The notes under the pieces were generated by a model. That model saw nothing but the letters and a program-made list of their open reading frames with translations. It did no database searches and was not told the DNA's origin. Source: Polynucleobacter meluiroseus (GTDB taxonomy: Bacteria > Pseudomonadota > Gammaproteobacteria > Burkholderiales > Burkholderiaceae). Taken from it: a stretch of DNA of 64,000 nt. A program made the position numbers and the translations under genes. The stretch is taken from contig CAMDKY010000001.1 of assembly GCA_945901245.1 (NCBI GenBank), positions 47,108 to 111,107 of the forward strand, written 5' to 3'. Below, piece by piece: positions 32,701-37,461 of this stretch. Each line of letters starts with the position of its first letter. The first letter of the stretch is position 1.

Positions 32701-34890
32701 ATGCCCCAATTACTAGACAAAACCATTGAGATTCTGAGCGTCAAGCATCTCCGTGGCCCCAATATGTGGACCTACCATCCCGTGATTGAGGTTTGGGTTG
32801 ATATTGGTGATTTGGAAGACTATCCGTCTAACTTAATTCCGGGGTTTTATGAACGGCTAGTCGAGTGCATGCCCGCCTTGATTGAGCACCGCTGTAGCTA
32901 TGGTGAGCATGGTGGCTTTTTAAAACGCATTCAGGAGGGCACTTGGCCGGCGCATATTTTAGAGCACCTCACGCTCGAATTACAAAACATGGCCGGCATT
33001 CCTGGTGGGTTTGGTAAAGCGCGCGATGCCGATCGGCGCGGCGTCTATAAAGTGATTGTTAGTGCAATCAATGAAAAAGTTACCTTGACTGCCTTGGAAT
33101 ACGCTCGCGACCTGTACTTGGCCTTAGTGCAAGATACGCAGAATGCGTCTGTCTTATTAAAGCAGCTCGTCGATCAATTGCGTGACCTTAGTGATGACCT
33201 TCTACTAGGTCCCAGCACCGCTAGCATCGTCTACGCAGCGGAAGAAAAAGGAGTTCCATCGATTCGCTTATCCAGGGGCAATTTAGTCCAGCTAGGTTAC
33301 GGCGCAAAACAGCGGCGCATTTGGACCGCAGAAACCGACCGCACTAGCGCGATCGCAGAAGGTGTTTCGCGCGATAAAGACCTCACCAAAAGTTTATTGA
33401 ATAACGCAGGGTTACCGACCCCAGAGGGACGCATTGTGGCAACCGCCCTGGATGCCTGGGATGCGGCAGAAGAAATCGGCTTGCCGGTAGTGGTTAAGCC
33501 AATTGATGGTAACCACGGCCGCGGCGTCTTCATCAATCTATACACCCAAGCAGAAGTTGAGGCAGCTTACGCCGTTGCTGTGCAGGAAGGCAGTGCGGTA
33601 TTAGTAGAGCGGCATATTTTAGGTGATGAGCATCGCCTGCTCGTCGTTGGCAACCGTGTGGTTGCGGCCGCAAAAGGTGAAACGGTCTGGGTCATTGGCG
33701 ATGGCATTCACAGCGTAGCCGACCTCATCAGCCTGCAAATCAATTCAGATCCGCGGCGCGGAACTGCTGAAGAATGCCCTTTGAATCCGGTACGGGTTGA
33801 TTCAGCTGTGGAACTCGAGCTCACTCGGCAAAAGCTCAGTGCAAAGGCGATTCCTGCAGAAGGGCATCGGGTATTTATTCAGAGCAATGGCAACGTTGCC
33901 TTTGATGTAACTGATCAAGTTCACCCCGAAATAGCCCGGCAAGTCGCCTTGGCAGCGCGCGTGGTTGGGCTTGAGATAGCTGGAGTTGACTTAGTAGCCC
34001 AAGACATTAGTAAGCCTTTTGAAGAACAAGGCGCGGCGATTGTAGAAGTCAATGCAGGCCCCGGCTTATTGATGCACTTAAAACCAGCCAGCGGAAACGC
34101 ACAGCCGGTTGGTAAAGCCATTGCGGATCACCTATTCCCGGCCGACGTGGATTTTAGAATTCCATTGGTCGGCATTACCGGCTCCAGAGGCAAAACCGTG
34201 GTTGCTGAAATGGTTGGGCACTTTCTCAGACTAACTAATCAATATGTTGGGGTCTCGTGCGGTGACCAGCTCTATTTTGGTAATCGCGTGATTAAAAAAG
34301 AACATCCATCCGATTGGGAAAACGCACGCCGCACCCTTCTTAATCGCGCAGTAGATGCAGCGGTGATTGAAAACAACCACCTGTCGATGTTAATTGAAGG
34401 CCTTGCCTACGATCGCTGCCAAGTTGGGGTTGTGCTCAACATTGATCCCAGTGCGACCTACCCAGAATACGCGATTTACGACGAAGATCAGTTATTTAGT
34501 ATTGTTCGCACGCAAGTCGACGTGGTTTTGCCGACAGGCGCGGCCGTTCTCAATGCCGATGATCCGCTGGTAGTAAAAATGGCTGAACTCTGCGATGGTG
34601 AAGTCATTTTCTTCTCCAGCAATGCAGCGTCTCCCTTGATTGAGAGTCACTTAAAACAAGGCGGCCGCGCAGTATTGGTGTGTGGTCAAGAGATCGTTTT
34701 AAAAACGGCTCGGCGCGAAGAGCAGGTATTGCACTTGCCGAAAAATTCTAAAAACACTACAGGCTTGCAGTCCAAATCAATTAATTTAGCGGCAGCAATT
34801 GCATCCGCCTGGGCCTTGAACATTCCATTTAATATTATTGTTGCTGGTACAGAGACCTTTTATTCTGATACCAATCAGGAAGAGGCGTAA
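32701..34890 (+). CDS. Truncated/divergent cyanophycin synthetase paralogue (CphA'-like)
   Basis: KHLRGPNMWTYHPVIEVWVDIGDLEDYPSNLIPGF N-domain; ATP-grasp VVKPIDGNHGRGVFINL, IVEVNAGPGLLMHLKP; degenerate P-loop GSRGKTVV; lacks the C-terminal Mur-ligase domain. Confidence 0.9.
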   Translation: MPQLLDKTIEILSVKHLRGPNMWTYHPVIEVWVDIGDLEDYPSNLIPGFYERLVECMPALIEHRCSYGEHGGFLKRIQEGTWPAHILEHLTLELQNMAGIPGGFGKARDADRRGVYKVIVSAINEKVTLTALEYARDLYLALVQDTQNASVLLKQLVDQLRDLSDDLLLGPSTASIVYAAEEKGVPSIRLSRGNLVQLGYGAKQRRIWTAETDRTSAIAEGVSRDKDLTKSLLNNAGLPTPEGRIVATALDAWDAAEEIGLPVVVKPIDGNHGRGVFINLYTQAEVEAAYAVAVQEGSAVLVERHILGDEHRLLVVGNRVVAAAKGETVWVIGDGIHSVADLISLQINSDPRRGTAEECPLNPVRVDSAVELELTRQKLSAKAIPAEGHRVFIQSNGNVAFDVTDQVHPEIARQVALAARVVGLEIAGVDLVAQDISKPFEEQGAAIVEVNAGPGLLMHLKPASGNAQPVGKAIADHLFPADVDFRIPLVGITGSRGKTVVAEMVGHFLRLTNQYVGVSCGDQLYFGNRVIKKEHPSDWENARRTLLNRAVDAAVIENNHLSMLIEGLAYDRCQVGVVLNIDPSATYPEYAIYDEDQLFSIVRTQVDVVLPTGAAVLNADDPLVVKMAELCDGEVIFFSSNAASPLIESHLKQGGRAVLVCGQEIVLKTARREEQVLHLPKNSKNTTGLQSKSINLAAAIASAWALNIPFNIIVAGTETFYSDTNQEEA

Positions 34891-37461
34891 TTGAAAGTAT
34901 CTCGCATTCGGATGTTACGTGGGCCTAATTTATGGAGTAGGCACACCGCATTAGAAGCCATTGTAGATTGCGATGCCTCTGAACGCGCTATCGATCAATT
35001 GCCCGCATTTGAGGTGAAGCTGCGAGAGCGCTTTCCACAATTGGGCTTCATGGGCTTTAGTGGCAAGACAGAAGTAGTTTCACTTGCACATGTGATTGAG
35101 CACGCCGCACTTGACTTGCAAGCACAGGCAGGCTGCCCAGTCACTTTTAGTCGAACCATCCAAACCAGTGATGACGGCGTGTATCAAGTCGTGGTGGAAT
35201 ACACCGAAGAGGCTGTTGGCCGCATGGCTTTCGACTTTGCACTGGCTTTAATTCAGGCGGCCCGAGATGAGGCTCCATTTGATTTGGCAACGGCACTGCA
35301 TGAGCTAGCCTCTTTATTTGAAGAGGTGCGCCTTGGGCCAAGCACTGGCTCGATTGTGGATGCTGCTATTGCGCACCACATTCCCTATCGGCGTATGACT
35401 GAAGGAAGCATGGTTCAGTTTGGCTGGGGCAGTAAACAAAAACGCATTCAGGCAGCAGAAACCAGTGATACCAGTGCCATCGCTGAGTCAATCGCACAAG
35501 ACAAAGAGCTCACCAAAAATCTACTGCATGCAGCTGGCGTATCGGTTCCCCATGGCGAAGTGGTTACCAGTGCCGATGAGGCATGGCGCGCTGCCCAAGC
35601 GATTGGTGGTCCAGTCGTGTTAAAGCCAAAGGATGGTAATCAAGGCAAAGGCGTTGTCGCCAACATTCGCAGCGAGGCACAAGTACGCGCCGGCTTTGAG
35701 GCAACCCAGGCATATGGGAGCAAGACCATTGTCGAGCGTTATCTGCCAGGTCAAGACTATCGCTTACTGGTCGTAGGCAATCAACTGGTTGCCGCTGCCC
35801 GCCGAGAGCCGGCCCAAGTAATTGGTGACGGGAAGCACACAATTGCGCAACTGGTTGAGTTGGAAAATAAAAATCCCTTGCGCGGCGATGGTCACGCAAC
35901 GGCATTAACCAAAATCCGCTTGGATGCGATTGCGATTGCCACCCTAGCGACAGTCAATCTCGATACGGCCTACGTTCCTAAAATGGGTGAGCGTATTTTA
36001 TTACGCAATAACGCCAATTTAAGTACCGGAGGTACCGCCACCGATATAACGGATGACGTGCATCCAGATGTGGCTGCAAGCGCAGTCGCTGCGGCGCAGA
36101 TGATTGGACTGGATATTGCTGGCGTGGATATTCTCTGCGAAGCAATATATAAACCCCTAGAGCCCCAAGGCGGAGGCATTGTTGAAGTGAATGCGGCGCC
36201 AGGCCTACGAATGCACTTGCAACCCTCCTACGGTAAGGGCCGTCCTGTCGGCGAGCACATTATTAATATGATGTTTCCGGGCGGTGACAACGGTCGCATA
36301 CCCACAGTTGCAGTAACCGGTACCAATGGAAAAACCACTACTGTCCGGCTAATAGCGCACCTCATTGAGAAAACTGGGCTGCGCATTGGTATGACCACTA
36401 CCGACGGCGTTTATGTCGAGGGCAGACGGATTGATACGGGTGATTGCAGTGGCCCTAAAAGTGCCCGCAATGTATTGATGCACCCCGATGTAGATGCTGC
36501 TGTATTAGAAACAGCCCGCGGCGGCATGCTTCGAGAAGGCCTAGGGTTTGATCGCTGCGACGTTGCCGTAGTGACCAATGTCGGCGAAGGCGATCATCTG
36601 GGTATGAATTTTATTCATACGGTTGATGATATAGCCTTAGTAAAACGTGTGATTGTTCAAAACGTCTCTACAACGGGCGTTGCCGTTCTGAATGCAATGG
36701 ATCCATTGGTGGTGAAGATGCGTGAAAGCTGCCCAGGCGACATTACTTTCTTTTCATATGATCAGAACCACCCCGTGATTGTGGCGCACCGAGCCAAAGA
36801 TAATCGGGTGGTCTTTTTTGATGGCACCGATATTGTTGCTGCCAAAGGTGTTGAAGAAATTCAACGCATCCCAGTTAAACGCATTCCGATGACCAAGCAG
36901 GGTCTTCTGCCCTTTCAGATTGATAATGCGATGGCTGCAGTTGGGGCTGCTTGGGCGCTTGGACTGCAGTGGAGCGCTGTGCATGCTGGACTAGACTCAT
37001 TTGATTTAGATGCCAATGCAGTACCGGGTCGATTTAATCTCTTTCAACACCGCGGCGCGACCGTGGTAGCCGATTACGGACACAACCCCGATGCCATGCG
37101 CGCCCTAGTCGACGGCATACAAGCCATGAAGCCCAAACGCAGCCATGTGGTGATTAGCGGTGCCGGTGATCGCCGCGATGAAGACATTCGCTCCTTAACG
37201 CGCATTTTAGGCAATGCATTTGATGACGTCATTTTGTACCAAGATCAATGCCAGCGTGGTCGCGAAGATGGCGAGGTAATAAAACTATTGCAAGAAGGCT
37301 TAGTCGGCACCAGCAAAGCAAAGCGAGTTCAAGAAATCCGTGGTGAGTTCTTAGCCATCGATACTGCGCTGAATCAACTTGAAGCAGGTGATGTTTGCCT
37401 TATTTTGATTGACCAAGTCGAGGAAGCTTTTGCTTACCTTGCTAAGCAGGTCAAAGCCTAA
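34891..37461 (+). CDS. cphA: Cyanophycin synthetase (full length)
   Basis: RMLRGPNLWSRHTALEAIVD, ATP-grasp VLKPKDGNQGKGVVANI, GTNGKTTTVRLIAH, ILETARGGMLREGLGFDRCDVAVVTNVGEGDHLG, VPGRFNLF; TTG start abutting the preceding TAA. Confidence 0.96.
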   Translation: MKVSRIRMLRGPNLWSRHTALEAIVDCDASERAIDQLPAFEVKLRERFPQLGFMGFSGKTEVVSLAHVIEHAALDLQAQAGCPVTFSRTIQTSDDGVYQVVVEYTEEAVGRMAFDFALALIQAARDEAPFDLATALHELASLFEEVRLGPSTGSIVDAAIAHHIPYRRMTEGSMVQFGWGSKQKRIQAAETSDTSAIAESIAQDKELTKNLLHAAGVSVPHGEVVTSADEAWRAAQAIGGPVVLKPKDGNQGKGVVANIRSEAQVRAGFEATQAYGSKTIVERYLPGQDYRLLVVGNQLVAAARREPAQVIGDGKHTIAQLVELENKNPLRGDGHATALTKIRLDAIAIATLATVNLDTAYVPKMGERILLRNNANLSTGGTATDITDDVHPDVAASAVAAAQMIGLDIAGVDILCEAIYKPLEPQGGGIVEVNAAPGLRMHLQPSYGKGRPVGEHIINMMFPGGDNGRIPTVAVTGTNGKTTTVRLIAHLIEKTGLRIGMTTTDGVYVEGRRIDTGDCSGPKSARNVLMHPDVDAAVLETARGGMLREGLGFDRCDVAVVTNVGEGDHLGMNFIHTVDDIALVKRVIVQNVSTTGVAVLNAMDPLVVKMRESCPGDITFFSYDQNHPVIVAHRAKDNRVVFFDGTDIVAAKGVEEIQRIPVKRIPMTKQGLLPFQIDNAMAAVGAAWALGLQWSAVHAGLDSFDLDANAVPGRFNLFQHRGATVVADYGHNPDAMRALVDGIQAMKPKRSHVVISGAGDRRDEDIRSLTRILGNAFDDVILYQDQCQRGREDGEVIKLLQEGLVGTSKAKRVQEIRGEFLAIDTALNQLEAGDVCLILIDQVEEAFAYLAKQVKA

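Follow-up and report, generated by a model that had tools for sequence, protein, structure and literature searches.

Two adjacent CphA genes in the window

We analysed a stretch of 64,000 nucleotides from Polynucleobacter meluiroseus (henceforth the window), which carries two adjacent genes related to cyanophycin synthetase. The first, cphA' (32,701–34,890, + strand), is an open reading frame of 729 aa with an N domain, a G domain and an Mcore but no Mlid; the second, cphA (34,891–37,461, + strand), encodes 856 aa with intact aspartate-binding and Mur-ligase sites. cphA' matched the cyanophycin synthetase profile NF010623 with 994 bits (covering positions 1–721 of 871) and scored 711.1 bits against TIGR02068, below the equivalog cut-off of 850, whereas cphA scored 1007.9 bits and lay above it. 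Mur_ligase_C (Pfam) was found only in cphA, whose Mlid (37,015–37,458, + strand; PF02875, 65.2 bits) has no counterpart in CphA', and Mur_ligase_M reached 22.8 bits in cphA' against a cut-off of 24.

An earlier note on this DNA had pointed to positions 34,150–34,890, which cover only the C-terminal third of cphA'. The motif changes it described, TGSRGKTVV for TGTNGKTTT and IENNHLSMLIEGL for LETARGGMLREGL, are present in the first gene, and this gene indeed lacks the C-terminal Mur-ligase domain: it ends with TFYSDTNQEEA at the Mcore/Mlid boundary, and its C-terminal helix (34,828–34,884, + strand; residues 710–728 in the AF2 secondary structure) lies where the absent Mlid would begin.

The TTG start codon of cphA directly abuts the TAA stop codon of cphA' in the same frame (34,888–34,893). 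This abutment is kept across Polynucleobacter (52 of the 154 loci surveyed), an ATGA overlap occurs in eight other loci of the same survey, and translational coupling of the two genes is likely. Genes on the opposite strand flank the pair; from reading the sequence, we take one for an ABC transporter gene and the other for a fructose-bisphosphatase-like gene. cphA' is thus a real, conserved paralogue directly upstream of a full-length cphA.

AF2 modelling gave a pLDDT of 92.7 and a pTM of 0.90 for CphA', and 90.5 and 0.87 for CphA. The pair shares its three-domain fold with CphA1 (SuCphA1, 7LG5 and 7TXV; TeCphA1, 7WAE), and the PDB folds closest to CphA' were those of CphA1 (7wae and 7txv), with a TMq of 0.83–0.86 to cyanobacterial CphA1 compared with 0.62–0.66 to CphA2. 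A helix (CphA' 72–79) ahead of the zinc-site helix is absent from the CphA model, where the segment has low confidence.

Survey of CphA-like proteins

We aligned 361 distinct CphA-like proteins from 270 loci with four solved CphA1 sequences (SuCphA1 numbering is used throughout) and divided them into three classes: 171 CphA', 167 CphA and 18 solo CphA, the last having all N, G and M sites. Five atypical sequences were at first left out, and four of them were later added to CphA' on the basis of their N site (giving about 175 homologues). Positions 323 and 458 were used in part for sorting CphA', while the N site, the loop deletion, Gln267 and the M site played no part in defining it.

The same truncated paralogue adjoins CphA in dozens of genera. 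Its end region is shared by most of the CphA' clade, and we thus rejected chance or an assembly artefact as the source of the truncation. The lid was lost throughout CphA' other than in eight of the 88 non-redundant sequences, which keep the lid or much of it and have an intact P-loop. Natural CphA'-CphA fusions were looked for and none was found.

The survey also recovered proteins of other layouts. A very divergent single CphA-like protein (locus L110, 1261–3585) has a changed ATP-grasp loop, and neither an N nor an M site can be recognised in it. Mur-ligase-only proteins of ~560–600 aa occur in solo-cphA genomes of Gammaproteobacteria, Deinococcus and Ruegeria, near cphA or cyanophycinase in the loci viewed (L164–L169, similar to CphA 476–860; L274, 7475–8079; L278, 5817–7553). 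Two non-cyanobacterial genomic loci (L265, 1529–3448; L266, 1622–3892) encode CphA2-like proteins with an N-G-truncated M layout, an ATP-grasp loop DKDGGRG or NRDGGIG and no zinc site. Searches of plasmids gave matches only outside pair-bearing genera; of the five examined, four (from Deinococcus, Sphingobium, Rhizobium and Ruegeria) are of the solo CphA type and have a cyanophycinase gene nearby, and the fifth, a Chryseobacterium CphA, is without the N site.

Complementary loss of active sites

The motif Cx19HxxEH, a zinc endo-cyanophycinase that makes primers (PMC9262961), lies in the N domain of CphA' (32,893–32,967, + strand; residues 65–89), where Cys65, His85, Glu88 and His89 correspond to C59, H79, E82 and H83 of SuCphA1; it is also present in most CphA1. 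All 171 CphA' have H57, C59, R70, H79, E82 and H83. What is left of this site in the window's CphA is H67-xx-E70-H71 (35,089–35,103, + strand), the equivalents of Cys59 and Arg70 and their segment being missing. Although the N site was used for separating CphA from solo CphA, none of the 167 CphA has even Cys59, and the full site is never present; accepted CphA1 such as TmCphA1 are likewise without it. This site, which the earlier note had missed, is the sole fully conserved active site of CphA' and is lost in its partner.

The ATP-grasp domain of CphA' combines a conserved nucleotide site with an altered acceptor pocket. Its P-loop DGNHGRG (33,505–33,525, + strand) retains the equivalent of His267, and the ATP/acyl-phosphate residues are nearly invariant (H267 in 168/171; K220, K261, R309 and D431 in 171/171; E450 in 170/171). 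In characterised enzymes His267 and Arg309 stabilise the acyl phosphate, and the incoming aspartate is held by Arg323, Asn394 and Arg458 in a space lined by Ser396; mutating R323, N394 or R458 impairs TeCphA1 (PMC9427784). Three of these aspartate determinants are gone from CphA'. Position 323 is Gly in 171/171 CphA' (Gly326 in the window; 33,676–33,678, + strand) and Arg in 167/167 CphA and 18/18 solo CphA, and position 458 is L, I, Q or E in 171/171 CphA' (Leu457; 34,069–34,071, + strand) and Arg in 167/167 CphA, figures of 100% that hold partly by construction given the use of both positions in sorting. The aspartate-recognition loop is shortened (33,874–33,906, + strand) from ANLSTGGIA to GNVA, with SuCphA1 396–400 deleted; the S396 loop is deleted in all 171 CphA', and the S396–I400 deletion holds in at least 98% of 80 non-redundant ones. 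Of the ATP-grasp motifs that the earlier note called intact, the DGNHGRG loop is so, but calling VEVNAGPG intact conceals the change that follows it, LLMH: NAGPGLLMH replaces NAAPGFRMH, with Leu where Arg458 stands, and working enzymes have FRMH or LRMH.

CphA keeps R323, N394, R458 and R561 in 167/167 sequences and S396 in 166/167. Its ATP-grasp loop is DGNQGKG, in which Gln251 (35,641–35,643, + strand) replaces His267, as it does in 161/167 CphA and in the Chryseobacterium solo CphA; all four solved CphA1 sequences used have His. H267A is the mutation used for inactivating the G domain of SuCphA1, and with position 267 mostly Gln, CphA alone may thus be weak at adding aspartate. This substitution, together with the nearly invariant ATP residues of CphA', favours the model of the earlier note, in which CphA' is a specialised subunit that keeps the Asp-adding half-reaction and leaves Arg addition to CphA. 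However, the residues forming the aspartate site (PMC9427784) are lost in CphA' (R323 to Gly, the S396 loop deleted and R458 replaced, each in 171/171) and kept in CphA. Of the 85 G-domain residues that never vary in solo CphA, CphA also retains 73 and CphA' 59, the losses of CphA' clustering in the aspartate pocket. We regard an Asp-adding CphA' as very unlikely, and rejected it on account of this lost pocket.

Since the aspartate pocket is gone next to a conserved ATP site, the G domain of CphA' may catalyse something else: it may act on another acceptor, or its ATP site may be purely structural or regulatory. In one version, the ATP-grasp domain would ligate an end cap or, like CphA2, the beta-Asp-Arg dipeptide, so that CphA' would both cut and re-join; the complete ATP/acyl-phosphate site, the acceptor pocket remodelled in all CphA', and an N-G-truncated M layout resembling that of CphA2 (the cyanobacterial beta-Asp-Arg dipeptide polymerase; 7TA5, 8FXH/8FXI) are consistent with it. 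By contrast, in a comparison by fold, layout and N motif, the fold of CphA' is nearer CphA1 (TMq 0.85) than CphA2 (0.66), and CphA2 lacks the N site (PMC9262961) that CphA' possesses and has not been described as an obligate tandem partner of CphA. Identity with CphA2 was rejected on motif and fold, and we consider ligation to another acceptor rather improbable.

In the Mur-ligase part, Arg addition in CphA1 is served by Lys499 and the lid (PMC9427784). The Mcore P-loop of CphA is intact (GTNGKT, 36,319–36,336, + strand; K499/T500 in 167/167), and its M site is essentially whole; with a TIGR02068 score above the cut-off and both Asp and Arg sites intact, CphA resembles CphA1 in these respects. 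CphA' has lost R561 in all homologues tabulated, D585/H586 in most, and in the window copy the whole lid with R731 and H748, which bears out the earlier claim that its Arg-adding site is lost. The P-loop of the window's CphA' had been called degenerate, which is too strong, because GSRGKT (34,180–34,197, + strand) still fits GxxGK[ST] and retains the Walker Lys and Thr equivalent to K499/T500 of TeCphA1; the description does suit its relatives, most of which have a decayed loop (GxxGK[ST] is intact in 35/88 non-redundant CphA').

The proportion of solo-invariant residues retained was 23/30 (N), 59/85 (G), 8/48 (Mcore) and 0/18 (Mlid) in CphA', and 10/30, 73/85, 39/48 and 18/18, respectively, in CphA. 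Within the otherwise decayed Mcore of CphA', Arg603 and Asp607 (34,507–34,521, + strand) are each present in 171/171 sequences and are among only 11 of 237 Mcore positions conserved at 98% or more; by our own arithmetic, the chance of drawing both among these 11 is about 0.002. Their equivalents, S603 and E607, are reported to contact cyanophycin when it occupies the N-domain site (PMC9262961). This conservation suggests that the Mcore of CphA' has been kept to serve the cutting site.

Phylogeny, linkage and selection

In a tree of representatives, the 63 CphA' and 45 CphA were each monophyletic and mutually sister, with a joint node support of 1.0, so the tree places the two as sister clades derived from one old duplication. 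In fetched loci with enough flank, CphA' lay just upstream of CphA on the same strand (152 counted automatically; further linked loci were L189, L219, L243 (open frames overlap) and L263 (tblastn)), and exceptions were contig ends and divergent copies. A phylum-wide draw found two genes in every matching genome of the window's order and one in each of nine matching genomes outside it; one of the nine, G851, has a CphA'-like score and belongs to an assembly with 8% contamination. One other family of the class has pairs as well (G533, G633 and G412). The partnership with full-length CphA that the earlier note proposed is supported, as an obligate one.

Within Polynucleobacter, median dN/dS was 0.011–0.030 in every domain of both genes (0.016–0.030 across CphA' domains; Mcore 0.030 in CphA' and 0.011 in CphA), which by this codon measure indicates strong purifying selection on both proteins. 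A decayed M domain, the lost lid and the breakage of the partner gene in some streamlined genomes could be read as signs of a functionless relic, yet the low dN/dS in every domain, the invariant N site and the persistence of CphA' with CphA across many families of the order make a relic hardly credible; purifying selection rules out a pseudogene as a general statement. In two genomes of one genus (G017 and G023), cphA is fragmented and cphA' still mostly readable, and in two others of that genus (G001 and G022) most or all of the pair is lost.

Cyanophycinase and the gene pair

We searched 300 genomes of the window's order for cyanophycinase (TIGR02069), and found it in 4 of the 81 genomes where a pair was confirmed compared with 9 of 9 with solo CphA (Fisher p 1e-9, ignoring phylogeny); this co-occurrence is phylogenetically confounded because the nine solo genomes come from two families. 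Three genomes with the pair and divergent extra copies were set aside (L179, L181 and L183, one genus, f8/g59). Their extra genes are head-to-head, full-length and CphA-like, stand beside a cyanophycinase gene, have Gln267 and no N-site Cys, and branch just outside the CphA'/CphA duplication. The window's own genome (94% complete) gave no cyanophycinase at E<=10 and no S51 match above the cut-off; IaaA and IadA were not found in it either. More widely, a recognizable cyanophycinase is encoded by only 2.8% of 903 CphA1-encoding beta-Proteobacteria, which was called unanticipated, with unknown isozymes suggested (PMC10206079).

The difference between pair and solo genomes suggests, short of proof, that CphA' supplies cyanophycin cleavage. 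One reading would make CphA' the missing cyanophycinase of betaproteobacteria, its zinc site serving mainly to break down stored polymer and its link to the synthetase serving regulation. The scarcity of cyanophycinase in our survey, in the window's genome and in the published set agrees with such a role. The characterised N site, however, works slowly and releases fragments about four dipeptides long, not free dipeptides (PMC9262961). The window's genome would still be short of IaaA and IadA, and solo CphA carrying this N site is found alongside cyanophycinase; with the solo genomes drawn from two families, we deem a mainly degradative role unlikely. It is possible but doubtful that the splitting of a trifunctional polymerase produced, in CphA', a dedicated zinc endo-cyanophycinase subunit that supplies primers for synthesis and, in betaproteobacteria, also stands in for the missing CphB.

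Discussion

CphA1, the enzyme behind the nitrogen-storage polymer cyanophycin, appears to be split in the window's freshwater bacterium and in most betaproteobacteria that have CphA. CphA1 carries all three sites on one chain, whereas in the pair no chain has all three: CphA' has the N-domain zinc motif and the ATP site of the ATP-grasp domain, and CphA the Asp and Arg sites. Our favoured explanation, which we hold to be probable, is that a trifunctional CphA1 subfunctionalised into a cutting, primer-making CphA' and a polymerising CphA, probably in one complex. From the observed sequence partition, phylogeny, linkage, selection and intact predicted fold we infer zinc-peptidase activity of CphA', primer dependence of CphA, a physical complex and the identity of the polymer.

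The duplication would thereby have divided the three CphA1-type active sites between the two proteins. CphA would add Asp through its ATP-grasp domain and Arg through its Mur-ligase domain and, its N-domain zinc site gone, would depend on primers as TmCphA1 does. This primer-dependent enzyme (PDB 7LGN) resembles CphA in having no N-domain motif and in keeping the Asp and Arg sites; it differs in having His267, for which CphA usually has Gln, and CphA is accompanied by an adjacent paralogue dedicated to the N site. The N-domain zinc endo-cyanophycinase of CphA' would cut cyanophycin into primers and perhaps also mobilise the polymer, its Mcore surviving mainly as a scaffold that also helps to cradle the polymer at the N site; its ATP-grasp domain would have lost the known mode of binding free aspartate. 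The two proteins would probably assemble, as linkage and complementary loss suggest, and the chains that CphA makes would be the ones cut. Against the split model counts the behaviour of SuCphA1, which performs somewhat better with its three sites together on one protomer than with them divided. An artificial version of the CphA'/CphA pair already exists: the isolated SuCphA1 N domain, supplied in trans, turned primer-dependent TmCphA1 primer-independent (PMC9262961).

Tandem cphA genes in betaproteobacteria are already known. Pairs termed cphA/cphA' or 'CphA1/CphA2' have been described for Ralstonia eutropha H16 (PMC11362209, citing Adames 2013), in line with the earlier note's statement that Ralstonia/Cupriavidus have two cphA genes, and for Gallionellaceae (PMC5178258), where the two cphA genes are adjacent. 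In the parts of these two accounts available to us, no site-by-site division of labour is given, and 'CphA2' would be a misnomer in such pairs if one gene is a CphA' orthologue. We found no report of a reciprocal active-site split in the literature available, in which Krehenbrink 2002, Fuser 2007 and Adames 2013 were known through citations, so priority is not established. As for the polymer, a review states that no cyanophycin was observed in wild-type R. eutropha with its two homologues (PMC11362209), which counts against the model, and a cyanophycin synthetase of P. asymbioticus is slightly up-regulated in the cold (PMC7522526).

The CphA'/CphA pair would be a clear example of duplicated genes that have reciprocally lost active sites, and the natural counterpart of chimera and trans-complementation experiments. 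Where a single CphA1 chain both cuts and builds, protein levels offer no means of adjusting the balance (PMC9262961); in the pair, these activities sit on two chains. The pair also suggests why expressing a single gene from a betaproteobacterial pair may fail to give polymer. It would further offer a specific candidate answer to the puzzle of why 97% of CphA1-bearing betaproteobacteria lack cyanophycinase, and the split might be part of how these bacteria get by when the standard cyanophycin-degrading enzyme is missing. If true, one polymer would be made and cut by two halves of one ancestral enzyme.
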